The position numbers and the translations under genes are program-made. Shown here in pieces: positions 1-11,300 of a stretch of 11,300 nucleotides of DNA (the stretch's first letter is position 1; every line of letters begins with the position of its first letter). Source of the DNA: Marinilabiliales bacterium (GTDB lineage Bacteria > Bacteroidota > Bacteroidia > Bacteroidales > BM523); assembly GCA_002869425.1 (NCBI GenBank), contig PKSZ01000150.1, positions 1-11,300 on the forward strand, written 5' to 3'. Below the pieces are notes generated by a model. It saw nothing but the letters and a program-made list of their open reading frames with translations. It made no database searches and was not told the DNA's origin.

Positions 1-934
1 TATAGCCAACAAAAACATTTTCATCACCTGTTATATTTGCAGCACCTGCATGATAACCCAAAAAAGAATTATAGTATCCACCATCATTTACCACTCCGGA
101 CTCATGTCCAATAAAGTAATTTTCTGTGGTTAGCCTCATGATTCTTTGCTTGGTTCCACCTTCAATGTTTTCTACACCAAAACCTGAAGTTGAGTCGCTT
201 ACAAAAACCCTTGTACTATCATCCTGAACAAACAAGTAGTTGCTGGTAATACTTCCTTTGGCCGGGCTAAAGCCTCCAACCGCGAAACCACCTTTGCTTC
301 CTGTTGCCTTTGCGTCTGTGTATTCATCATCGATATAAACGCGAACACTATCCGGTGTAACCCTCAGATATTCCTGTACTTCTGATTTTGCCGGGCTGAA
401 GCCTCCTACAGCGAAACCGCCTTTACTTCCTGTTGCTTTTAACGCAGGGTCGTTAGGAACATTTACACGAACACCATTGGAATATACTGCAAAAATTGTA
501 TCACCATCGGAGTTTAATACTTCAAAAATTGGATCATCAATACCAATGCCCAGATCTGCTTTTACTTCGAGTTTTCCAATAGGAGCAGAAGTACCAACAC
601 CCACTTTGTTAACTGCATCAGTAGTGAAAACATTATTTGCATTTTTTGACCAGATATCGCCCATATTCGAAAGGCCAATCCATTGTCCTCCATCGTAAAA
701 GTAAAATGCATTCTGATCCGTATCAAAAACCATAAGTCCCTGAACGGGGTTGGCAATGCCTGTGCGCTGTCCAGATGTTAGTCTTGGAATGAGCAAGCCT
801 TTATCTGTAGAATATACATCCAACATAGCAGAAGGATCGGCAATATGTGAATCGTCATCTGTAACTGCTACGTTTTGGGCAATTATAGCAGATGAAAACA
901 ATAAGAATATTAATATTGGAATTATTTTTTTCAT
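1..934 (-). CDS. Secreted modular fibre-like protein, N-terminal 311 residues (C-terminus outside window)
   Basis: The reading frame is open from the ATG at 934 to the window edge, so the gene is 3'-truncated by the window, not broken. Residues 1-19 form a signal peptide (MKKIIPILIF start) ending at A|QN. Residues 20-90 are the family module (NVAVTDD, SAMLDV, GLLIPRLT, AFYFYDGGQW). A GVGTSAPIGKLEV motif lies at 112-124. GGFAVGGFSPAK occurs at 172-183 and 215-226, a 43-residue period. The 17-residue GHESG/GYHAG array starts near 272, with three units visible. The start is 5 bp past the stop of the gene at 940-3459, which implies co-transcription and perhaps translational coupling. The upstream AAATAAACACA is A-rich with no Shine-Dalgarno site, as is usual in Bacteroidota. 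Residues 192-280 match the gene at 8580-10826 almost exactly. The role as a surface fibre or adhesin is inferred, and the tip domain is unknown. Confidence 0.9.
   Translation of the reverse strand, partial: MKKIIPILIFLLFSSAIIAQNVAVTDDDSHIADPSAMLDVYSTDKGLLIPRLTSGQRTGIANPVQGLMVFDTDQNAFYFYDGGQWIGLSNMGDIWSKNANNVFTTDAVNKVGVGTSAPIGKLEVKADLGIGIDDPIFEVLNSDGDTIFAVYSNGVRVNVPNDPALKATGSKGGFAVGGFSPAKSEVQEYLRVTPDSVRVYIDDEYTDAKATGSKGGFAVGGFSPAKGSITSNYLFVQDDSTRVFVSDSTSGFGVENIEGGTKQRIMRLTTENYFIGHESGVVNDGGYYNSFLGYHAGAANITGDENVFVGY
191..439 (-). repeat. Two tandem 43-residue GGFAVGGF modules, gene 1-934
   Basis: These are residues 166-248. Each unit reads K-A-T-G-S-K-GGFAVGGFSPAK, then a Y-L-x-V-x-x-D-S-x-R-V stretch ending in short acidic turns. 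The two cores use different codons, so the unit is kept at protein level rather than being a fresh DNA duplication. Confidence 0.85.
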
Positions 935-939
935 TGTGT

Positions 940-3459
940 TTATTTTGACGCTGATTGTTCCAGTGTTTCCTGTAGTTTTAGTACAGTCTTTTCCAGACTA
1001 TCAAAACGTTCTTTCATTTTATCGTTTTCTGCTTTTAGATTATTGATTTGACTTTCTTTTTTATTTACTTCAGTCATCAGTTTTTTGTTTAAGTCGATAA
1101 TGGCCTGAATGGATAAGATTGAGAAATCGTCGTATGACAAACCTTTATATTCTGTTTTGTCGTTTGGTAAATAGAAAGTGTTTATTAGGTCAGGAAATAA
1201 GTCTTCAACATCCTGAGCGATAAAACCATAAGACTTTGGATCTTTTTTATCACTTGATTTAAGATAAAACTTAGAAGGTTTTAGTTGAAGTACTTTATCC
1301 AGCACTTCTCCAACAGGTTCAATATCCTGTTTTAATCTTTTATCAGAAGCAACGTCATATGAACCATCTGCATCATCAATTCTTGACATAACTGTACCAT
1401 TGTATGAGAAGATGAATTTATTGGCTCCGCTACCGCTTCCAATTTCCCAATAGTTTGAATTGTCGGAATTCTCCATACGGATGGCATGTAAATCATTGTC
1501 TTGTTTGATATGAATATCGCAAGCAGGGTATAATTCGTTGATGCCAATATCCCCGGTATTATCTTCAAAAGTAACCCTGTGTGTTGTTCCATCATAAAAA
1601 TTCATATTGCCACTACTTGCAGTTCCTATTTGCCATTCTTCTCCACCTGAATATTCTTCAACGTGAATGGCATATCCTGACGAGTTTGTTTTTACATCCA
1701 GTGTTGCATCTGGAGATGTAGTTCCAATTCCTACGGATCCACCCATAAATGAATATACATCGTCAGTGGTATAACTAACTGTTGACCCACTAATATTAAA
1801 TGCCATAACGTTATCTGCCTGAACATCTATACCACTACCAAAACCAAAAGCATCTTTACCATCTGTTGAAACATTTCTACCAATAGCAACAGATGCAAAT
1901 CTTGTTAACGGCATAAAAGTCAAGGCATAAGATAATGCAGTGTTATCAAATCCCAATGCAAGAGAGTAGCCTTTTACAAAATGCATGGCATCCCCTGCTC
2001 CAGCAAGGTTGCTATAGCCAATAGATATGGAATTTGTGCAGTATGCTTCAGACTCTGATCCTATTGCAGTTGATCTTGTTCCTGCTGCGATATTTCCGTA
2101 TCCCATTGCAATACTACTGGTTCCTGTAGTAGTTGATTCGTCTCCCAATGCAACAGAGTTTTTACCATCGCCCAGAGTGTTAACGCCCAGTGCGAGTGCT
2201 CCAGATCTTGTTGTAGCTGCTCCAAGTCCAATAGCCATTGAATAATCTCCAGCTGCCAGTGTTGGATTTCCTGTAGAAACCCCTGAAGTATCTCTGCCAA
2301 CCGAACCAAATGCATATGAGCCGGTTCCTGTGGCCAGGGCTTCATCTCCAAACGCATAAGAGTTTGATCCTCTTGCATCTGCAAAGTTCCCTATTGCAGT
2401 AGAATTTGTGCCAAAAGATCTTGCGCTGTTACCCAATGCTTGTGAGTAGTTTCCAACTGCTTTAGATTCATATCCAGAAGCCCATGAATAGGAACCTACA
2501 CTGTCAGGATCCTGAACAAGAACCTGTCCTGCCATAAAAGCTTCTTTGATAGGATACCAAAGGATTCTTGGTTCTGAAGGATTGATTACTTCAGATGAAT
2601 CTGCTCCTGAAATATTTAAATAGTCATTTGTAACGCCTTTTGCATCTGAGAATCCTCCAACAGCAAAGCCTCCTTTACTTCCTGTTGCTTTATCGGGTCC
2701 TGATTCGTCAATCCACATTCTGATACTGTCATCGCAAACCCTCATGTATTCGTAGGTTAGAGAATTCTTTGCCGGACTAAAACCGCCAACAGCAAATCCT
2801 CCTTTGCTACCTGTTGCTTTTGAACCATCTGATTCTTCAATGTATATTCTAACGCTATCGGGAGTAACCCACATATATTCTCCAATAGGGCCACCTTTTG
2901 CCTGGCTGAAACCACCAACAGCAAAACCGCCTTTATTCCCGGATACTTTGCTAGGACTATCATCAACGTTTATTCTAACGCCTCCCTGATACACTGCGAA
3001 AACTGTATCTCCATTATTGTTTACAACTCCGAAGATGGGTTCTTCCTGCGTTATACTTGGATCAGATTTTACTTCAAACTTACCTGCAGGTGTTTTTGTG
3101 CCAATTCCCAGTTGGAAAGTTGTGTCGTTAAGAAACACCATACTTCCATCTTGTCCCCAGAGGCCACTTGGGGTTCCATGCGTTAGATTATACCAGGTTG
3201 TATCTTGTCTGAAGTAAAATTCATTCAGATCTGTATCAAATACAAGCAGTCCCTGAGCAGGATTAGCAATTGAAATTCGTTGGTTAGTAGTGAGCCTGGG
3301 AACCAATAAACCTTTGGTTGTTGATTTCACATCCAGCATTGCAGATTCATCTGCAGTATAGCCATTGTCATCTGTAATAGCCACATTCTGAGCATTTAAC
3401 AGAGTGCTAAGAAACATGAAAAGCACCATAAAACAAGCAACGGAGTATTTAATTACCAT
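940..3459 (-). CDS. Secreted fibre-like protein with YadA-type head repeats and C-terminal Peptidase_S74 chaperone domain
   Basis: The 839-residue protein begins with a signal peptide (about 1-23, ...LLNA|QN). The shared N-terminal module spans about 24-92 and a LGIGTKTPAGKFEV motif 117-130. GGFAVGGFS.AK occurs three times, at 177, 220 and 263, exactly 43 residues apart; siblings have two copies. After a linker with AGQVLVQDPDS (310-320), residues 323-541 hold YadA/Hep_Hag-like head repeats such as NYSQALG, TNSTAIG and SNSYAFG, mostly 14 residues apart. The siblings have 17-residue units here. A second GIGTTSPDATLDV lies at 578-590. The C-terminus matches Peptidase_S74: SDKRLK at 705-710 supplies the Ser and Lys expected of the self-cleavage site, and GFIAQDV lies at 745-751. 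A coiled coil covers about 788-835. In phage fibres this domain drives trimerisation and then cuts itself off. Surface location and adhesion are inferred. Confidence 0.93.
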   Translation of the reverse strand: MVIKYSVACFMVLFMFLSTLLNAQNVAITDDNGYTADESAMLDVKSTTKGLLVPRLTTNQRISIANPAQGLLVFDTDLNEFYFRQDTTWYNLTHGTPSGLWGQDGSMVFLNDTTFQLGIGTKTPAGKFEVKSDPSITQEEPIFGVVNNNGDTVFAVYQGGVRINVDDSPSKVSGNKGGFAVGGFSQAKGGPIGEYMWVTPDSVRIYIEESDGSKATGSKGGFAVGGFSPAKNSLTYEYMRVCDDSIRMWIDESGPDKATGSKGGFAVGGFSDAKGVTNDYLNISGADSSEVINPSEPRILWYPIKEAFMAGQVLVQDPDSVGSYSWASGYESKAVGNYSQALGNSARSFGTNSTAIGNFADARGSNSYAFGDEALATGTGSYAFGSVGRDTSGVSTGNPTLAAGDYSMAIGLGAATTRSGALALGVNTLGDGKNSVALGDESTTTGTSSIAMGYGNIAAGTRSTAIGSESEAYCTNSISIGYSNLAGAGDAMHFVKGYSLALGFDNTALSYALTFMPLTRFASVAIGRNVSTDGKDAFGFGSGIDVQADNVMAFNISGSTVSYTTDDVYSFMGGSVGIGTTSPDATLDVKTNSSGYAIHVEEYSGGEEWQIGTASSGNMNFYDGTTHRVTFEDNTGDIGINELYPACDIHIKQDNDLHAIRMENSDNSNYWEIGSGSGANKFIFSYNGTVMSRIDDADGSYDVASDKRLKQDIEPVGEVLDKVLQLKPSKFYLKSSDKKDPKSYGFIAQDVEDLFPDLINTFYLPNDKTEYKGLSYDDFSILSIQAIIDLNKKLMTEVNKKESQINNLKAENDKMKERFDSLEKTVLKLQETLEQSASK
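1837..2493 (-). repeat. 14-residue YadA/Hep_Hag-like head repeat array, gene 940-3459
   Basis: These are residues 323-541. The repeat-ending glycines fall at 329, 343, 357, 371, 385, 411, 425, 439, 453, 467, 481, 503, 527 and 541. Runs of exactly 14 are broken by inserts around 386-400, 482-496 and 504-520. Core units are (x)S-x-A-[ILMF]-G. In YadA-family adhesins such repeats form a trimeric left-handed beta-roll; the same fold is inferred here. Confidence 0.8.
2590..2949 (-). repeat. Three tandem 43-residue GGFAVGGF modules, gene 940-3459
   Basis: These are residues 171-290. The GGFAVGGFS cores start at 177, 220 and 263, exactly 43 apart, followed by QAK, PAK and DAK. The last unit decays after NDYLNISGADSSE, where the sequence turns into the linker leading to the YadA-like head. 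Confidence 0.85.
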
Positions 3460-3674
3460 AACTCTCTTTATTTTAATATGTTAGTATATGTACTATTGAT
3501 GTAAATATACGAATTTTTGTTGCATTAATAATCAAGATATAAGCACTTTTCATCAAGTAAAACGAGGGTTTTACCAATTAATGATGAGTCTTCCACAATA
3601 GATTTATGAAATAAAGAAAATGGAGAAGAGGAGATAATTTTTATTAATTCTGCAAAAGTAAATGAAATGCAATC
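3460..3674. other. 215-bp intergenic region, longest gap inside the fibre gene cluster
   Basis: No gene is seen here. It is AT-rich and holds a minus-strand promoter candidate at 3653-3684 and a 7-bp hairpin at 3557-3574. A weaker promoter candidate has TATATTTA (3502-3509 on the minus strand) with TTG at 3533-3535. I see no strong GC stem followed by a T run, so a true terminator for the gene at 3675-6128 is not evident. Confidence 0.6.
3557..3574. repeat. Short perfect inverted repeat in the 215-bp gap
   Basis: GTAAAAC (3557-3563) and GTTTTAC (3568-3574) are exact complements around a 4-base loop. The stem is AT-rich and not followed by a T run on either strand, so it is a weak terminator candidate at best. 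It could be a leader hairpin or an operator. Confidence 0.4.
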
Positions 3675-3684
3675 TTATTTACAA
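3653..3684 (-). promoter_or_regulatory. Candidate Bacteroidota-type promoter for the gene at 940-3459
   Basis: On the minus strand TTG (3682-3684) is followed after 21 bp by TACTTTTG (3653-3660), matching the TTG / TAnnTTTG promoter of Bacteroidota. It would give a leader of roughly 185 nt. The -33 part lies inside the last codons of the upstream gene. Pattern match only; AT-rich DNA produces such matches by chance. Confidence 0.35.
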
Positions 3685-6128
3685 TCTGTTGCATTTATTA
3701 TTCCTTTATCTCCGGGTTCATTGTATAGCTCAGGATTGAGATATTTTCCTCTTTCGTTTTGAGGTTTATCCTCTTCAACGATTATAGGGTGCTGTACAGC
3801 ATAAGGATCTTTTCTTGAGCCTGTTACTTGCCAGCAAACTTTCATTCCACTGGTTCCTCCTGCAATCGAAAACTGGTTGTTACTAATTTCCTGATCAATA
3901 TAAATGGGGGCATAAGCACCAATGCTTGTTAGTTGATATCTAAAATCTTTATTAAGCGCTTCAAAGTAGCCAGGTAGTGTAATAGTAGCCCTGCCTTCAC
4001 TGTCGAGAATAACTGTTCCATCGTAAACATTTTTCATGTCGGGACTTTCAACAAATGAGTGAGACAGGTATTTGTTTTCCGGATCCTGTGGGTGATCAAT
4101 TTTGAATGAACCTGCTGATTTTGAAAGTGTTCCGTTAACATGTACATTCCCACTGAAAAAACCTGCATAATTTGTTCCGCTACCACTTGCTGAAGCATAA
4201 ATACCAATGTGGGAGCCTGTTCCTGTTCCACTAGCTGCAGTGTAAACACCGTAAATATCTGCTGTTGATGTGCCCGATGAATTGGCATATAGACCATAAG
4301 CAGAACCTGTTGCATCGTTGGTTGTAATTGCCCAAAGTGTTTTCCATTTTGATTCTGCCTTTATAGCTACACCATAATTGTCTGTAACATTGTGTGCTGC
4401 ATGAATTGCAGGATTGTCGTTACTTGCTTGCAAATCGTACACGGCAAGTTTATTCCCCGGACTATTGGTTCCAATTACGATCTTGCCATTGTTATAGAAA
4501 ATGTCTGTGCCATTTTGTGTCCAGTATGAATAAAAGGGTAGCCATGCGGAACCATTGTAACCTTCAAAATTTGTTCCTGTCCAGCGAATTGTTCCTGCAT
4601 TGGATAGAGATGTTGTGCCAATCCTTATGCCTCCATTCACATCTAATGTTTCTACTGGGTATTTTCCAATTCCAAGTTTATTGTTAACTCTCAATATCTG
4701 GTTGTCGAATTCGCCATATATTAAAGCACTGACACTGGTTTGTGACCAGTCGTTGGCAATGTATAGTTTGTGCGATCCTGTTTCCTGATAGCCAGCACCT
4801 GATCCAAGAAAGACATTATAGCTTCCATTGCAACCGCTACCTGCTGTGGATCCAATATAAGTATTGTCTGATCCTGATGAATTCATTCTACCTGCTTCGT
4901 TGCCAAGAAATGTATTATCATCACCTGTTATGGTGTTTGTACCAGCTTTATATCCAATGAATATTTGACCCTGTTTATCTGTATTGCTATAGCCTGCCTG
5001 ATGACCAATGAATACATTGTAACCTCCTATGGTGTTATTATGGCCGGCTTCGTTTCCCAGAAAAGTATTGTAGTTACCTGAAGAGTTTGTAACCCCACTC
5101 TCAAATCCCATAAATGTATTTTGGGTACCGTTAGCATTATTCATCCCACTTTTGTATCCAAAGAAAGAGTTGTAATCATTTTGGTTGTTTAAACCTGCCT
5201 GATACCCAACAAATGAGTTGTATGAACCGCCCAGGTTTTCTTTGCCCGACTGGTATCCTATAAAACAGTTGTGGTAGCCAAAATAGGTATTCATACCACT
5301 TTCATGGCCGATAAAATAATTATCAGGTGTAAGATCCAAGTAGTTTGCTGATCCCATTTGCCAGTCTCTGATTTCGAAACCACCTGTACTGTTTGTCCAT
5401 ACCCGACTACTGTCATCCTGAACAAAAAGATAATTATTTGTTAGGTCTCCCTTTGCTGTACTGAAACCACCAACCGCAAAACCTCCTTTGCTACCCGATG
5501 CCTTTGCATCAATATAATCGTCATCAATATAAACCCTAACGCTGTCTCTTGTTACCCTAAAATACTCTTGAGGTTCTCCTTTGGCTGGACTAAAACCGCC
5601 AACCGCAAAGCCTCCTCTGTTGCCACTGGCTTTAACAGCTGGTTCTTCTGAAACATAAATACGAACACCGTGGGGATAAACTGCAAAAACAGTATCTCCG
5701 ACCGCATTTAGTACTTCAAATATCGGTTCTTCCGGAGAGATAGAGGGATCAGCAATAACTTCCAGTTTGCCCAGAGGATTTTTTGTCCCTACTCCAACCT
5801 TGTTAATGGTGTCAGAGGTATATATGTAATTGCCAGATTTGCTCCATATGTCTCCTTCTGCTATAAGATTTATCCAGTTACCATTGGTGTAGAAGTAGAA
5901 AGAGTTATCGTTGGTGTCATAAACCAGCAAGCCATTGGCAGGATTGCTGATAGATGTTCTTTGTGAACTGGTTAATCTGGGAATAAGAACTCCTTTTGAG
6001 TTAGACTTGATATCGAGCATTGCTGAATTGTCTGCGGAGTATCCGTTGTCATCTGTTATTGCAATATTTTGAGCTTGAGAGATAAGACTAAAAACAGCGA
6101 GTAGGAGTAAGATGGATATTCTTTTCAT
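3675..6128 (-). CDS. Secreted fibre-like protein with 17-residue repeat array and C-terminal SFKIDHP-type domain
   Basis: The 817-residue protein has a signal peptide (about 1-19, ISQA|QN), the family N-terminal module (20-88) and VGVGTKNPLGKLEV (111-124). GGFAVGGFS.AK occurs at 172 and 215. Eleven G-x-x-[AS]-G repeats lie between 274 and 446, at 16-17 residue spacing. A LIYGEF segment (469-474), GIG, TIRWTGTNFEGY and glycine/serine-rich strands (GVYTAASGTG, GIYASASGSG) follow. The end, about 673-810, is a conserved block I recognise from hypothetical proteins of several phyla: SFKIDHPQDPENKYL, SFVESPDM, GRATITLPGYFEALN, VCWQVTGSRKDPYA, VEEDKPQNERG. Its function is unknown to me. It takes the position of the S74 or lectin-like ends of the siblings. 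The start lies 34 bp after the stop of 6163-8526, suggesting one transcript. A trimeric surface fibre is inferred; no catalytic motif is visible. Confidence 0.93.
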   Translation of the reverse strand: MKRISILLLLAVFSLISQAQNIAITDDNGYSADNSAMLDIKSNSKGVLIPRLTSSQRTSISNPANGLLVYDTNDNSFYFYTNGNWINLIAEGDIWSKSGNYIYTSDTINKVGVGTKNPLGKLEVIADPSISPEEPIFEVLNAVGDTVFAVYPHGVRIYVSEEPAVKASGNRGGFAVGGFSPAKGEPQEYFRVTRDSVRVYIDDDYIDAKASGSKGGFAVGGFSTAKGDLTNNYLFVQDDSSRVWTNSTGGFEIRDWQMGSANYLDLTPDNYFIGHESGMNTYFGYHNCFIGYQSGKENLGGSYNSFVGYQAGLNNQNDYNSFFGYKSGMNNANGTQNTFMGFESGVTNSSGNYNTFLGNEAGHNNTIGGYNVFIGHQAGYSNTDKQGQIFIGYKAGTNTITGDDNTFLGNEAGRMNSSGSDNTYIGSTAGSGCNGSYNVFLGSGAGYQETGSHKLYIANDWSQTSVSALIYGEFDNQILRVNNKLGIGKYPVETLDVNGGIRIGTTSLSNAGTIRWTGTNFEGYNGSAWLPFYSYWTQNGTDIFYNNGKIVIGTNSPGNKLAVYDLQASNDNPAIHAAHNVTDNYGVAIKAESKWKTLWAITTNDATGSAYGLYANSSGTSTADIYGVYTAASGTGTGSHIGIYASASGSGTNYAGFFSGNVHVNGTLSKSAGSFKIDHPQDPENKYLSHSFVESPDMKNVYDGTVILDSEGRATITLPGYFEALNKDFRYQLTSIGAYAPIYIDQEISNNQFSIAGGTSGMKVCWQVTGSRKDPYAVQHPIIVEEDKPQNERGKYLNPELYNEPGDKGIINATDCK
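4791..5321 (-). repeat. Eleven-unit 17-residue GYxAG repeat array, gene 3675-6128
   Basis: These are residues 270-446. Unit glycines lie at 274, 291, 308, 324, 341, 358, 375, 392, 409, 426 and 442. The consensus is G-[YNH]-x-[AS]-G-x-x-N-x-x-G-x-x-N-x-F-[ILM]. At DNA level this is a 51-bp (sometimes 48-bp) degenerate tandem repeat. Confidence 0.85.
5397..5630 (-). repeat. Two tandem 43-residue GGFAVGGF modules, gene 3675-6128
   Basis: These are residues 167-244, with cores at 172 and 215. The first is followed by FRVTRDSVRVYID and the second by LFVQDDSSRVW, the same strand pattern as in the siblings. Confidence 0.85.
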
Positions 6129-6162
6129 AATGCAATTTTTGGTAAAGGAAGAATTCAGTTCG

Positions 6163-8526
6163 TTATTCCTTATTTAGTGTAGAAGCATTTAATGTTTCGT
6201 GAATTTTATCAATTTCAGCTCTGAAGCTTTTTTCCTGTTCGTTTAAGGCTCTTTTCAATTCTTCATTTTCTTTTTTCAATTCTTTTACAGCATTAACCAA
6301 TGCAACATTAATTGAATGCATGTTAAAATCCAGATAGCCATCTTCGCCTTTATTAACTGCTTCAGGGAATACTTTTTGAACATCCTGGGCTATAAAGCCA
6401 ACGTATTGTATATCACTGGGAAGATGTCTGGGATTGTTTTTTTTGTAATTAAACTGAACCGGGTTTAGCTTGCAAATATCTTCCAATCCTTTTGAATAAT
6501 CACCATTGATATCTTTGAGCCTGATATCTGAGCTGTTACTCCAGCTTCCTCCGCCAGGTTTACCTGCAGAGCCGTTAACTTCCAGTGTGTATGATGGAGA
6601 GCTAGTTGCAATTCCAACTTCATCGGCGAAATAGTTGTATGCACCACCATAGCCCCAGCTAAAATATGTATCATTATACCAAAGTGCCTCATCTCCATTT
6701 ACATACATGGCGACACCTGTTGAGCTACTCTTTAAGTTTGCGTATCCGGCAATGGTTAGGTTGGCATTGTCATCAAGCTTTGCTTTTGTTGTATTTCCAT
6801 CATATGATAGCGCTTCCCAGAAGTTGCCAGTATTGCTGTTTCCATCCTGAATGATTATACCTCCTGAGGTTGTATTGAAAAATTGTGAACTTGTCTGTTG
6901 TATTCGCAGTTTGGCTCCGGATGGAGCGGTACTAATGCCAACACTGGCATTGAAGCGAAGCTTATTATAATCAAATTCGCCATAAATTAAGGCTGTTTCA
7001 TCATCATTGTCGGAGTTCTCAATATATAACTTATTGGATTCTGTTTCGTTGTATCCGGCGTTGTACCCGATAAATACATTTCCTTCTCCGCTAAAGTTTC
7101 CTTGTCCGGCACTTTTTCCTATCATTACATTGTTATCGCTTTGTGTAAAATAGCCCGCCATATCTCCAAGAAAGGTATTATTATTGCCTGTTTGATTGTA
7201 GTAGCCAGATAAGTATCCAAGACTTGTATTGTGTTCACCAGTAGAGATTCTTTGTCCGGCTAGATTTCCCACAATTGTATTATAGCTGCAGTCATCTGCA
7301 TAGAAGCCGCATGTAACACCAACAAAAACGTTTCCATATCCTGCTGCGAGATGGTTTCCCGCTTCAGCTCCAATTAATGTGTTTTGTTTGGCTCCATCAA
7401 GGTTTATTCCTGCGTCAGCACCAACTACTGTGTTATAGTCTCCTGTTGTGTTACCGTAGCCAGCCATAGATCCGATAAATGTGTTCTCTCGGCCAATGGT
7501 GTTGTGATATCCTGTCATAAAACCCATAAAAGAGTTTCTAACACCATCATCAGAGCTTGGACCCCCAACATTTGAATAGCCACTTTGATAGCCGATAAAT
7601 GAATTAAATGATCCCGAAGTATCCGAGAAACCAGCCTGATATCCAATGAATTGGTTGTGAATTCCTGAAGTGACCCTATCGCCACTGTGGTGTCCAATGA
7701 AGTAGTTTTCCGAAGTTAAATCTACAAGGTTTTCAATGTTGTCAGTATTGATTGATCCTACTCCGAAACCTCCCAGAGAATCCTCTACATAAACTCTTGT
7801 ACTGTCTGTGTGAACAAACAGGTAATCGTTGGTCATGTTTTTAGCAACACTGAATCCTCCCACAGCAAAACCGCCTCTGTTTCCGCTTGCTTTTGTGCCA
7901 ATTGAGTCAGGGATGTAGATTCTTACACTATCGGGTGTAACCCAAAGATAATCGTCTTGAAGACTTTTGGCCTGGCTAAAACCACCAACAGCGAAACCTC
8001 CTCTGTTTCCGGATGCTTTAGCGGGATCATTTTCAACATTGATGCGAACACCAGAATTGTAGACAGCGAGTACAGTATCTCCATTTTTATTTACAACGCC
8101 AAAAATAGGATCTTCATCTGAAATATTATTGTCGGCTTTTACTTCCAGCATTCCTTTCGGAATTTTGGTTCCAATTCCGACGTTATCAGTTGTATCATTC
8201 AGGAAAACCCTTGATCCGGATTTAACCCATAAAGGACCTGTGGTTCCAGAAGTTAGGTTTAGCCAGGATTGACCATCATAATAGTAAAAGGCATTTTCTG
8301 TGGAATCATAAACCAGTAAACCTGCAACGGGATTATTTATATTCTCTCTTTGAGCAGTTGTGAGCCGAGGAATCAGCATTCCTTTGTTTGTTGATTTAAC
8401 ATCAAGCATCGCTGATGCATCAGCGTTATAACCAGCATCATCGGTTATTGCTACGTTTTGAGCTTTCAAATGCCCAAAAGCTGAAATAAGGACTGCTATT
8501 AGTAGAAATTGGAGTGTTTTTCTCAT
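6163..8526 (-). CDS. Secreted fibre-like protein with 17-residue repeat array and C-terminal Peptidase_S74 chaperone domain
   Basis: The 787-residue protein has a signal peptide (about 1-22, HLKA|QN), the family N-terminal module (23-91) and VGIGTKIPKGMLEV (116-129). GGFAVGGFS.AK occurs at 176 and 218. Thirteen GYQAG-type repeats lie between 278 and 491, 16-17 residues apart except for one extra hexapeptide (about 323-328). The KLYIEN and LIYGEFD segments then lead to a strand-rich stem and a second fibre motif, VGIATSSPSYTLEV (637-650). Residues 666-750 are a Peptidase_S74 domain: SDIRLK at 666-671 provides the Ser and Lys of the expected autocleavage site, and GFIAQDV is at 710-716. A charged coiled coil (about 745-778) ends the protein. 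By family knowledge, this domain assembles a trimer and is then released by self-cleavage before Ser666. The gene follows 8580-10826 by 53 bp. The final surface role is inferred. Confidence 0.93.
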   Translation of the reverse strand: MRKTLQFLLIAVLISAFGHLKAQNVAITDDAGYNADASAMLDVKSTNKGMLIPRLTTAQRENINNPVAGLLVYDSTENAFYYYDGQSWLNLTSGTTGPLWVKSGSRVFLNDTTDNVGIGTKIPKGMLEVKADNNISDEDPIFGVVNKNGDTVLAVYNSGVRINVENDPAKASGNRGGFAVGGFSQAKSLQDDYLWVTPDSVRIYIPDSIGTKASGNRGGFAVGGFSVAKNMTNDYLFVHTDSTRVYVEDSLGGFGVGSINTDNIENLVDLTSENYFIGHHSGDRVTSGIHNQFIGYQAGFSDTSGSFNSFIGYQSGYSNVGGPSSDDGVRNSFMGFMTGYHNTIGRENTFIGSMAGYGNTTGDYNTVVGADAGINLDGAKQNTLIGAEAGNHLAAGYGNVFVGVTCGFYADDCSYNTIVGNLAGQRISTGEHNTSLGYLSGYYNQTGNNNTFLGDMAGYFTQSDNNVMIGKSAGQGNFSGEGNVFIGYNAGYNETESNKLYIENSDNDDETALIYGEFDYNKLRFNASVGISTAPSGAKLRIQQTSSQFFNTTSGGIIIQDGNSNTGNFWEALSYDGNTTKAKLDDNANLTIAGYANLKSSSTGVAMYVNGDEALWYNDTYFSWGYGGAYNYFADEVGIATSSPSYTLEVNGSAGKPGGGSWSNSSDIRLKDINGDYSKGLEDICKLNPVQFNYKKNNPRHLPSDIQYVGFIAQDVQKVFPEAVNKGEDGYLDFNMHSINVALVNAVKELKKENEELKRALNEQEKSFRAEIDKIHETLNASTLNKE
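7054..7707 (-). repeat. Thirteen-unit 17-residue GYxAG repeat array, gene 6163-8526
   Basis: These are residues 274-491. Unit glycines lie at 278, 295, 312, 335, 352, 369, 386, 403, 420, 437, 454, 470 and 487. The single 23-residue step contains an extra polar hexapeptide near 323-328, a probable surface loop. This is the longest array of the four that can be counted or partly seen. Confidence 0.85.
7786..8016 (-). repeat. Two tandem GGFAVGGF modules, gene 6163-8526
   Basis: These are residues 171-247, with cores at 176 and 218. The spacing here is 42 rather than 43 residues, and both cores follow SGNR instead of the SGSK/TGSK common elsewhere. Confidence 0.82.
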
Positions 8527-8579
8527 TTTAGTTACATTTTATTAATAATTTGTTTCCTGCCTGATTGTAGCATATTTAT

Positions 8580-10826
8580 TTATTGCTGCCAAGCAAACCA
8601 ATCTACTTGTAAACTCTGTCCCCATATTCCTCCTGGACTGTCAACCCTGCAAATATTTACCTGGACAGATGTTGTTGAAATATTTCTTGTTGTGATTGCA
8701 AATACATCTGAATAATTTTGACCTCTTACAGTGACATTAACTTTTGGGGTTGTTGTAAAAGAAGATGGGAAAGTAATCGTAATGGTTTTTACACCACCAC
8801 TTGAATTTGTGCCTACTGTTGCAGTTCCGGCCTGAATTTTCTCTATGGTTGTACCGCCATTTAATTGCATGCCTCCATCACCATAAATTACAAATTTTGT
8901 ATCTGTATCTGTCCAGCCAGTAGCACTTGTATTTGTCCTTATTCGCAAGGGAATATCAGTGGCTTCACCATCTGTATCAATAATCAAACCTTTCTGACTT
9001 GCAGCATTTGTGTTGTTTGATACATGTAAGGCACTTTCCGGAGAACCCTCATTAACACCAAGCCTGTTACTGCTAAAATCACCATAAATCAATGGAGAAG
9101 AAGTATTCGAGTTGTCTATGTACAATTTATCAGAACCTGACTCATCTGATCCGGCATTACATCCAATAAAAACATTGCCACTTCCATAGTTGCTATTCCC
9201 TGTATTGTATCCAAGCATAACATTATTACTTCCTGACGTGTTATTGTACCCAGACAACGGACCAACATATAAATTGTTACTTCCACCATCCATATTAACA
9301 CCAGCCCACCAACCGATGGTTGTATTAAAACTGCCTTCTTCGTTACGAAAAGATGCCTGATTACCAATGCAAGTATTACCTGTACCACCAATATTACTGT
9401 ATCCAGCTGCATTTCCAAGAAAGACATTATTCCATGCATTGTTATGATAACCAGCCTGATATCCTATGAAAAGACTGAATCGACCTGTTGTATTTGAATA
9501 ACCTGCTTCAGGACCGATGAATACATTTCTGAAGCCTGAAGTATTTGATTTTCCCGCCATATATCCAAAAAATGCATTTTCATAACCGTCATCATTGTTT
9601 AAGCCTGCACTATATCCATAAAATGCATTTTTATCACCAGATGTAAGTTTATTTCCTGATTTATAACCAACACATGAGTTATATTGAGCATCTGTAATTG
9701 CAATTCCACTTTCATGACCAATGAAATAGTTTTCCGTAGTTAGTCGCATAATCCTTTGTTTGTTAGAGCCTTCTATATTTTCAACACCAAACCCAGATGT
9801 TGAATCGTTTACGAATACTCTCGTGCTATCGTCCTGCACAAAAAGGTAACTATTGGTAATTGTTCCTTTGGCCGGGCTGAAGCCGCCTACAGCAAAACCA
9901 CCTTTGCTGCCTGTTGCTTTTGTGTCAACATAAGAGTCGTCTATGTATACACGCACACTGTCGGGTGTAACATTTAAATAGTCCTGTACTTCATTTGCTT
10001 TAGCCGGACTAAAACCACCTACGGCAAATCCACCTTTGCTACCTGATGCCTTAACCTGATCGGTATTTACATAAACTCTTACACCGTATGGATATACTGC
10101 AAAAACTGTATCTCCATCAGCATTCTGTACATGAAAAAGTGCTTCATTGCTTCCCAGATTGGATGATCCTTTAACTTCAACAGATCCTTCACTTTTTAAT
10201 ACCAGCCTGGCATCGTCGGCTGTGACATTATTCATGTCAGATAAGGGCCTGTTTGCAAATATTAAATCACCCCTACCATAACTTAATCTGTCCTGATAGA
10301 AAATTCCACCTTTGGATGTATTGACTGTTGTGCCATTCCAAAATCTAATTCCGGACATTACACCATAGGAGCCATTTGAATTTTGTACCTGGATGAAGGT
10401 CCCAGATGTTCCTGTTATATCTGCAGAAAAATGTTTTATGTGCATTTTTTGGAGTGGGAGATCTACCCCAATACCAATTGAATCATTGATGTCTGCAGTA
10501 TATGTATATGGTGCTGATCTTAGCCAGATTGCACCATCTGCTGAGCCTGAAGACATATCTATCCAATCAGAACCATCAAAAAAGTAATATCTATCATGAC
10601 TGATATCAAAGACCAAGAGACCTGCAGTAGGCGTTGCAATTGCAAGTCTTTGAGAACTAGTCATTCTTGGTGCCAGAAAACCTTTGGTTAAGGATTTTAC
10701 ATCGAGCATTGCAGATGAATGTGCATTATAAGAATTGTCATCTGTTATTGCAACATTTTGGGCTTTAATAGCATATGATGTAAGGATATACACTACTAAG
10801 AGTGGGAGCACTTTGTTAATTTTCAT
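8580..10826 (-). CDS. Secreted fibre-like protein with 17-residue repeat array and C-terminal H-type-lectin-like domain
   Basis: I place the start at 10826 (748 residues) because MKINKVLPLLVV begins a normal signal peptide ending IKA|QN, as in all siblings. The frame stays open to an ATG at 11048, but that would add 74 residues with no signal-peptide character and overlap the promoter region. The family N-terminal module spans 23-92. Unlike its siblings, residues about 131-229 carry an extra block (GIRFWNGTT, FYQDRLSYGRGDLIF, DARLVL). GGFAVGGFSPAK occurs at 265 and 309. Twelve GYKAG-type repeats run from 370 to 559. The end (about 679-746: VKTITITFPSSF, TPKVNVTV, ITTRNI, QVDWFAWQQ) resembles the H-type lectin fold, a trimeric sugar-binding domain; this fold call is by pattern only. 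As the first gene of the cluster, it probably carries the main promoter. Confidence 0.9.
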   Translation of the reverse strand: MKINKVLPLLVVYILTSYAIKAQNVAITDDNSYNAHSSAMLDVKSLTKGFLAPRMTSSQRLAIATPTAGLLVFDISHDRYYFFDGSDWIDMSSGSADGAIWLRSAPYTYTADINDSIGIGVDLPLQKMHIKHFSADITGTSGTFIQVQNSNGSYGVMSGIRFWNGTTVNTSKGGIFYQDRLSYGRGDLIFANRPLSDMNNVTADDARLVLKSEGSVEVKGSSNLGSNEALFHVQNADGDTVFAVYPYGVRVYVNTDQVKASGSKGGFAVGGFSPAKANEVQDYLNVTPDSVRVYIDDSYVDTKATGSKGGFAVGGFSPAKGTITNSYLFVQDDSTRVFVNDSTSGFGVENIEGSNKQRIMRLTTENYFIGHESGIAITDAQYNSCVGYKSGNKLTSGDKNAFYGYSAGLNNDDGYENAFFGYMAGKSNTSGFRNVFIGPEAGYSNTTGRFSLFIGYQAGYHNNAWNNVFLGNAAGYSNIGGTGNTCIGNQASFRNEEGSFNTTIGWWAGVNMDGGSNNLYVGPLSGYNNTSGSNNVMLGYNTGNSNYGSGNVFIGCNAGSDESGSDKLYIDNSNTSSPLIYGDFSSNRLGVNEGSPESALHVSNNTNAASQKGLIIDTDGEATDIPLRIRTNTSATGWTDTDTKFVIYGDGGMQLNGGTTIEKIQAGTATVGTNSSGGVKTITITFPSSFTTTPKVNVTVRGQNYSDVFAITTRNISTTSVQVNICRVDSPGGIWGQSLQVDWFAWQQ
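9150..9731 (-). repeat. Twelve-unit 17-residue GYxAG repeat array, gene 8580-10826
   Basis: These are residues 366-559. Unit glycines lie at 370, 387, 404, 421, 438, 455, 471, 488, 505, 522, 539 and 555. The eighth unit has ASF where the closing glycine is expected. Confidence 0.85.
9807..10052 (-). repeat. Two tandem GGFAVGGF modules, gene 8580-10826
   Basis: These are residues 259-340, with cores at 265 and 309 (spacing 44). The second unit and the following 40 residues match gene 1-934 almost exactly. Confidence 0.85.
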
Positions 10827-11119: not shown

Positions 11120-11300
11120 ATGGATAAGAAAGTAGTTTTAATGATCCTGGATGGCTGGGGTATAGGAGATAAATCAAAATCGGATGTGATTTATACAGAG
11201 GGAGCAGAAAATATTGAAAATCTGAAAAGTACATATCCAAATAGCCGGTTGCAAACTTGTGGAGAGGATGTAGGGTTGCCTGAAGGACAGATGGGGAATA
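11120..11300 (+). CDS. gpmI: 2,3-bisphosphoglycerate-independent phosphoglycerate mutase, N-terminal 60 residues (runs off the window)
   Basis: The frame opens at ATG 11120 and stays open to the window end. The product starts MDKKVVLMILDGWGIGDK, the hallmark of cofactor-independent phosphoglycerate mutase, a cytosolic two-Mn glycolytic and gluconeogenic enzyme interconverting 3- and 2-phosphoglycerate. Asp11 of DGWG is the expected metal ligand. Residues 53-60 read LPEGQMGN, and in this family the next residue is the catalytic serine that carries the phosphate; its codon begins at 11300. The full protein is normally about 510 residues. The gene diverges from the fibre cluster and has its own promoter candidate 52 bp upstream, so it is probably unrelated in function. 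Confidence 0.96.
   Translation, partial: MDKKVVLMILDGWGIGDKSKSDVIYTEGAENIENLKSTYPNSRLQTCGEDVGLPEGQMGN

Follow-up and report, generated by a model that had tools for sequence, protein, structure and literature searches.

Tandem genes for putative exported, phage-tail-like fibres with one base and differing tips in a Marinilabiliales bacterium, and a candidate docking partner

The window and the closest described systems

Bdellovibrio bacteriovorus encodes the mosaic adhesive trimer (MAT) superfamily, which comprises chimeric exported fibres that end in S74 or non-S74 tips. In the main text of PMC10769870 it is suggested that these tips are swapped, no structural homologue in the PDB is reported for the N-domain of approximately 130 residues, and what anchors the fibre base at the cell surface is given as unknown. 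Here, we describe a locus of similar make-up from a different phylum (Bacteroidota instead of Bdellovibrio). The stretch under study (the window) consists of 11,300 nucleotides of a Marinilabiliales bacterium (PKSZ01000150.1) and corresponds to the entire contig C449 of draft genome G000 (3.92 Mb, 751 contigs, 83% complete). Its minus strand carries five head-to-tail fibre genes, g1 to g5 (window 2-10826); contig boundaries lie at 1 and 11300, and the 3' end of the array is missing from the window. The original prediction for this DNA, a tandem array of five exported-type fibre proteins with one base and differing tips, was confirmed. With a probability of about 0.72, we read the window as belonging to a chromosomal array in which the host encodes exported adhesive fibres that resemble phage tails, with a protein encoded downstream of such arrays in relatives (the partner) as the docking candidate.

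As in MAT, the fibres are encoded by the bacterium and of exported type, a constant domain follows the signal peptide, many copies are present per genome, the shafts are beta-helical, and the tips are either S74 domains with an SDxxxK motif (here g2 and g4) or of other kinds (g1 and g3). Unlike what is described for MAT, the genes form arrays of up to 11 in relatives and can have a partner linked to the type IX secretion system (T9SS). Neither feature is mentioned in the main text of PMC10769870, which contains no words beginning with Bacteroid, operon, or tandem. Membership of MAT would require a base homologous to the MAT N-domain, and we therefore call the system MAT-like and not a member of MAT. 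The same main text names K1F and T5 as phages with S74-chaperoned fibres or tailspikes. Such phage proteins resemble those in the window in their S74 domain, SFKIDHP tip, and repeat shaft, whereas the proteins described here would be exported from the cell and have a base of their own that is nearly lacking in phages.

It had also been proposed that a five-gene operon with swapped ends might not be described as a system. The concept of chimeric fibres has in fact been described for Bdellovibrio (PMC10769870, main text), but Bacteroidota arrays were not found in the literature searched, and as far as that search reaches, the Bacteroidota base, the arrays, and the conserved downstream partner are new. 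The chimeric-fibre strategy of a predator also exists, then, as large tandem arrays in Bacteroidota, in which base and tip evolve apart. The tips are a source of unnamed, possibly ligand-binding domains, and the conserved T9SS partner provides a concrete Bacteroidota candidate for such a surface anchor. It is both the most interesting and the least tested part of the system.

Base, shafts, and tips

The signal peptide, N-terminal module, and GGFAVGGF modules that had been claimed as common were seen in all five proteins. Each starts with a hydrophobic stretch ending A|QN (judged by eye), as in the Bacteroidetes Q-rule (available text of PMC5837995), and from these ends export via Sec and signal peptidase I is predicted. 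The base then continues with a QN module (~70 residues), a linker, a short module, and the GGFAVGGF modules (2, 2, 2, 3, and 2 copies in g1 to g5). The insert in the base of g1 recurs in an S74-tipped gene on contig C438 of the same genome; the 124 columns of linker plus insert are 80% identical and the module after the insert 81%, while the tips are unlike. The base of g5 is closest to g1 in GGF module 2 (92%) and the collar (88%); its linker is only 33% identical to that of g1, with g3 being nearest at 58%. A motif resembling the capping loop of MAT shafts (self-chosen pattern) is present in all five proteins, but in most of them it lies in the base; MyRF aligns to g2 over a stretch that holds this motif. 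A second type of base was observed in relatives (L204/L205, L206, L209-L212, L213, and L075/L076), where the leader is followed by ..YQ[AGTS]V.R.. and combined with the GGF modules, shafts, and tips known from the QN type; these YQ-type genes form runs of their own.

A 17-residue shaft array had been expected in four proteins. In g1, g2, and g3 the lag-17 score (0.93-1.15) exceeds all 300 shuffles (maxima -0.13 to 0.11), which bears the claim out for these three. Only the first 17-residue units of g5 are visible, and its score of 1.40 stays below the shuffle maximum of 2.12. In g4 the period is 14 residues (score 0.51 versus a shuffle maximum of -0.05). The g4 shaft is identified as YadA_head in Pfam (8e-16) and matches the solved heads of BpaC, invasin (1p9h), a Hep_Hag protein, and EibD. 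YadA_head repeats are found in six of the ten relatives scanned as well.

The four visible C-termini had been assigned to three kinds: S74 (twice), SFKIDHP, and lectin-like. This stands with two qualifications, namely that the H_lectin match of g1 is slightly sub-threshold (Table 1; 21.6 bits in the relative L132) and that the two S74 tips are only 33% alike. For S74 (PF13884, cut-off 22 bits), g2 scores 50.2 bits (3e-13) and g4 54.9 bits (1e-14). Over the last ~130 residues, the g1 tip shares 53% and 70% identity with the relatives L059 and L132, respectively; for the g3 tip there was no Pfam match at E≤1. In total, 129 complete, non-duplicate C-termini were collected, of which 99 fall into 12 classes (three-letter names are our own) and 30 stayed unclassed. 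The classes are S74 (50), Fib_succ_major (8), SFKIDHP (6), HLP (6), Lcl_C-like (6), TWQ (5), WYI (4), H-lectin-like (3), GHY (3), VIQ (3), MAW (3), and one class of 2. Among the class representatives, Fib_succ_major scored above the Pfam cut-off and Lcl_C and H_lectin just below it; beyond S74, the remaining representatives had no tip family in Pfam. Eleven of these classes sit on a QN base with two GGF modules. The SDxxxK motif occurs in 21 of 24 S74-tipped genes, including g2 and g4.

In the order of the window, the profile of the base was matched by 120 of 295 genomes at E≤1e-10. A scan of named genomes gave 72 loci, all from metagenome-assembled genomes, of which 70 are Bacteroidota/Bacteroidetes/Bacteroidia/Bacteroidales, one is Chlorobiota, and one is Chloroherpetonaceae. 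When genes with at least one GGF module and at least 250 residues were counted at gaps below 600 bases, same-strand runs held 80 of the 120 family genes in the loci collected, with a run of at least two in 14 of 20 genomes; these loci were taken around hits and some regions were hand-picked, so the fraction is not a genome-wide rate. The longest runs in unbroken contigs contain 8 genes (GWF2_33_38), 8 genes (MAG82; five with YQ-type and three with QN base, and runs of 3 and 3 elsewhere), and 11 genes (GWF2_33_16; five QN and six YQ, followed by one other gene and then 2 more). The single-contig genome G213 has runs of 3 and 5, and G183 a run of 4. In the mixed arrays of MAG82 and GWF2_33_16, the QN and YQ types occupy separate blocks. 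Scattered, unlinked genes in relatives, the pattern that would contradict an array, were not found. In the nearest genome, G001 (L058, L078, L117, and L133), several fibre genes are short, fragmentary, or contain stops, representing either decayed copies or assembly errors. In L142 (2402-6218), two tandem SFKIDHP-tipped genes in which no QN or GGF module was found are followed by a gene with a QN module.

The histories of base and tip are separate. Bases from one genome group together in a tree built from 52 of them (229 columns). The eleven tip classes on it need 21 changes (minimum 10) compared with 27.2 after shuffling, and none of 200 shuffles was as low; tip classes overall thus keep some clustering, above all Fib_succ_major (0 of 500 shuffles as low) and Lcl_C (3 of 500). 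S74 takes 17 changes versus 17.4 shuffled (261 of 500 as low), 12 of which are forced by well-supported branches. Among the 24 S74-tipped genes, base identity is 63.1% within genomes (29 pairs) and 52.0% between them (247 pairs), which was reached in 0 of 2000 permutations, whereas the identity of the same genes' tips is 32.7% within and 34.0% between genomes (1541 of 2000 permutations). The nearest neighbour comes from the same genome for 16 of 21 bases and for 2 of 21 S74 tips, and the distances of base and tip are uncorrelated (Mantel r -0.018). Concordant trees for base and tip, which would have spoken against the original prediction, were accordingly not found. Single cases point the same way: adjacent genes of GWF2_33_38 are 87% alike in the base and 29% in the S74 tip, and one tip of GWA2_31_9 and GWF2_33_38 is 75% identical on bases that are 54% alike. 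Similarly, L119_6102 and L107_12349, from different genomes, share 71% of their DNA over 1437 bases of shaft and tip, with base proteins 53% alike. Movement of tips and re-copying of bases both fit these observations.

The downstream partner and the competing readings

An exported protein with a conserved domain of ~300 residues, for which there is no Pfam name, was first seen directly 3' of the QN block in G213, MAG82, GWF2_33_38, and GWF2_33_16. Its rear part consists of Big_5/Big_12 repeats in MAG82 and GWF2_33_16, is unnamed in G213, and carries SprB repeats in GWF2_33_38 (26 stretches) and the window's own genome (31 stretches). Short partners, found in eight of the genomes scanned, have little beyond the domain and a sorting signal. 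On contig C406 of the window's genome, a fibre gene (9720-11618) is followed after 48 bases by a partner (1776-9671). The reading frame of this partner (L011, 1-9671) ends at 1776, with further SprB repeats in a different frame (1772-3), so that the gene is broken or misassembled at this point.

At 1e-20, the partner profile has matches in 87 of 295 genomes. Among the matches listed, 20 are full-length (residue ≤11 to ≥297), of which two (G154:C87 and G070:C132) have no visible upstream region. In 15 of the other 18, the partner is preceded by a same-strand fibre gene no more than 1.1 kb away (10 of 13 once the five rows used to build the profile are removed). The distance is 5-48 bases in 10 of the 15 linked cases; it is longer in G070:C460 (133 bases), G169:C69 (274), and G070:C787 (403), and reaches ~1 kb in G001:C483, where the fibre is a fragment, and G262:C296, where it lies behind a 112-residue frame. 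The upstream fibre is visible as shaft and S74 only in G169:C69 and G044:C129, and has a QN but no GGF module in G245:C115 and G070:C460. Seven regions with partial partner hits show a fibre upstream in two (G287:C3 and G166:C35), directly downstream in two (G253:C9 and G259:C246, the upstream of the latter not being visible), and neither in three. Viewed from the fibres, 24 QN runs have a 3' end that is visible, and the partner is the next gene in eight of them and the second in one, compared with 0 of 14 YQ runs (Fisher p 0.014 for 9/24 versus 0/14) and 0 of 7 other runs.

The partner is reminiscent of T9SS adhesins and of the SprB/SprF gliding system, given the SprB repeats in the window's genome and PorP/SprF genes near two distant partners (L262 30-968 and L270 1230-2165; the sorting signal of the L270 partner is of type B). 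According to the available text of PMC12635249, SprB is a type B T9SS substrate. In contrast, a T9SS sorting domain was detected in 10 of 10 short partners scanned (of 17), nine being type A (eight above cut-off) and one type B above cut-off, and the fibres have no such domain: none was found in g1-g4 at E≤1 in Pfam and NCBIfam, and the C-terminus of g5 is not visible. The window's genome encodes the T9SS channel SprA (TIGR04189, two fragments above cut-off). In five scanned loci (L255, L256, L257, L269, and L056), the partner is followed by Reg_prop, Y_Y_Y, or both, with SpoIIE in two of them and HATPase in one; such sensors were noted at L213 as well, and the match in G213 is sub-threshold.

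We propose that each fibre protein would be exported by Sec and cleaved by signal peptidase I. The fibre proteins would then trimerise and S74, where present, would chaperone the trimer and cleave itself off at SDxxxK, a self-cleavage that is known for S74 proteins. With the base toward the cell and the shaft pointing outward, the tip would bind a glycan or another ligand. Sister genes may keep one base through docking on one common site, for which bases that are alike within a genome and tips that differ would be expected, and tips that are exchanged or diverge freely would allow one cell to display several specificities. As docking site, the partner is the strongest candidate, with its ~300-residue domain and usually a T9SS signal, whether in short form or with giant SprB or Ig repeats. 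The fibres have neither a T9SS signal nor a recognised anchor, so holding or carrying them at the outer surface would fall to the partner. More tentatively, and with odds that we consider well short of even, the two may form a surface organelle in which a T9SS-exported docking protein receives or carries interchangeable phage-type fibres across the outer membrane. If so, a single stalk, perhaps a mobile one, would bear several specificities where the partner is of the giant SprB type, and the Reg_prop/Y_Y_Y sensors beside some loci may set the timing of fibre production.

The S74, SFKIDHP, and shaft sequences are also found in phages, and PHROG tail spike or tail fibre families match all five proteins (weakly in g5, 0.0072). 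The SFKIDHP tip was detected at 24 viral loci among 90 candidate stretches and in 10 phage records, including a tail fibre of Prochlorococcus phage P-SSM2, and lies near the C-terminus of phage tail proteins; a portion of the 17-residue array in g2 is matched in 13 of 50,697 phage records, several of which carry a tail-protein annotation. A role of the five genes as tail-fibre genes of a prophage, a tailocin, or an extracellular contractile injection system is nevertheless very unlikely. All five have leader peptides, the visible neighbour matches phosphoglycerate mutase, and up to 11 fibres with different tips in one run suit no single phage. The base gave 2 weak loci among 13 viral candidate stretches and 4 matches, over 20-23% of the query length, in the 50,697 phage records. 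None of the viral SFKIDHP-tip proteins at the 24 loci has a GGF module, and one has a 24-residue piece resembling the QN module. Virion genes are absent from the window, in which 474 bases beyond g1 and 0 beyond g5 are visible, and around the other arrays the flanking genes were read for leader sequences only. To judge from the sequences, a host base would have been combined with a phage-type shaft and tips. Three of the viral-labelled loci (L174, L175, and L177; 3 of 24, by eye, with the start cut in four) encode SFKIDHP proteins with an apparent leader and are perhaps host genes. Membership of the YadA-type trimeric autotransporter adhesins, which the head repeats of g4 and of relatives call to mind, has an even smaller, almost negligible chance, as g1-g4 have no membrane anchor at E≤1 (g5 is cut) and the visible C-termini are S74, lectin-like, or SFKIDHP. 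We read the head repeats as shaft parts held in common with that type and not as a sign of membership.

Several results weigh against our preferred reading of docked fibres with exchanged tips, and two explanations draw on them. In one, the tips are static: old paralogues keep them, and gene conversion re-copies the 5' halves within a genome, which leaves the base as the one part that looks shared. Old tips on homogenised bases would produce the same pattern as moving tips, and the clustering of bases by genome fits either. Within a single relative genome, identical residues use the same codon in 60-73% of cases in the base and 44-62% in the rest, with the higher value in the base for 9 of 9 close pairs. 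The first 716 bases of L107_7390 and L107_9998 show 85% identity, beyond which the two genes share only one 55-base repeat of the base. The discordance is also weaker in the window's own genome, whose four S74 tips group together on the tip tree with 2 changes (as few in 4 of 500 shuffles; the same-genome neighbours are on C438 and C406). Codon identity in five pairs of that genome is raised in the base only for g1-g5 (55% versus 42%), the others being equal or lower. On the other hand, no common tip order is seen among arrays of different genomes (by eye), and near-identical bases carry unrelated tips in L100_8475 (S74) and L132_2106 (H-lectin-like) and in L100_2619 (Lcl_C-like) and L100_4773 (Fib_succ_major). 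Static tips, which we regard as possible yet on balance doubtful, would make tip movement unnecessary but not impossible. Within this limit, the base-tip discordance supports the predicted diversification by tip swapping. In the other explanation, fibre and partner adjoin only as co-controlled surface adhesins, with the base docked at some other site or the fibres shed. The absence of an adjoining partner from 15 of the 24 QN runs and the sensors after the partner favour it; linkage of the partner to the QN base as opposed to the YQ base, the 5-48 base distances, and short partners that are barely more than the domain and a T9SS signal speak against it. We give co-control a chance somewhat below even. 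Further points on the negative side are that 3 of the 18 full-length partners have no fibre upstream (G286:C4, G201:C40, and G199:C4) and that giant partners yielded a sub-threshold type A signal at the C-terminus in G213 and none in MAG82, the end not being visible in the window's genome. In addition, the window's own 3' neighbour past g5 is not visible, and the structure model of the base is weak (mean pLDDT 70.9, pTM 0.39), with no PDB match at E≤0.001. What is observed, namely the array, the common base, the tip classes, the base-tip discordance, and the linkage of the partner in relatives and on C406, agrees with docked fibres, for which trimerisation, surface display, docking, and ligand binding are inferred.

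Positions of the features

Table 1. Genes and domains in the window
Feature	Position	Strand	Evidence
g1, opens the array; putative exported fibre protein of 748 aa with base, insert, 17-residue shaft and H-lectin-like tip	8580..10826	-	ORF list, Pfam, repeat analysis
g1 tip, H-type-lectin-like	8589..8783	-	Pfam PF09458, 23.5 bits vs cut-off 24
g1 insert within base, ~96 residues	10164..10451	-	module comparison
g1 17-residue shaft array (approximate bounds)	9057..9734	-	lag-17 score
g2, 787 aa: base, 17-residue shaft, S74 tip, C-terminal helix (coiled-coil-like)	6163..8526	-	ORF list, Pfam
g2 S74 domain with SDIRLK (SDxxxK)	6355..6531	-	Pfam
g2 17-residue shaft array (approximate bounds)	7027..7713	-	lag-17 score
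g3, 817 aa: base, 17-residue shaft, SFKIDHP tip	3675..6128	-	ORF list, repeat analysis
g3 SFKIDHP tip, without Pfam family	3765..4148	-	Pfam; matches in phage tail proteins
g3 17-residue shaft array (approximate bounds)	4770..5324	-	lag-17 score, module bounds
g4, 839 aa: base with three GGFAVGGF modules, 14-residue YadA-head-like shaft, S74 tip	940..3459	-	
g4 S74 domain with SDKRLK (SDxxxK)	1186..1347	-	Pfam
g4 14-residue YadA-head-like shaft array (approximate bounds)	1780..2532	-	Pfam, lag analysis, solved-structure matches
g5, 311 aa visible: base and first shaft units; remainder past contig end	2..934	-	
Divergent gene start, matches 2,3-bisphosphoglycerate-independent phosphoglycerate mutase over first 58 positions	11120..11299	+	

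The divergent phosphoglycerate mutase-like gene marks g1 as the first gene of the array. A longer frame of g1 is listed from 11048, and its leader peptide begins at 10826. From g1 to g5, the intergenic gaps measure 53, 34, 215, and 5 bases. The 215-base gap upstream of g4 (3460-3674) holds at its far end the sole match to the promoter consensus TTG..TAnnTTTG that was found upstream of the five genes, perhaps a second promoter.

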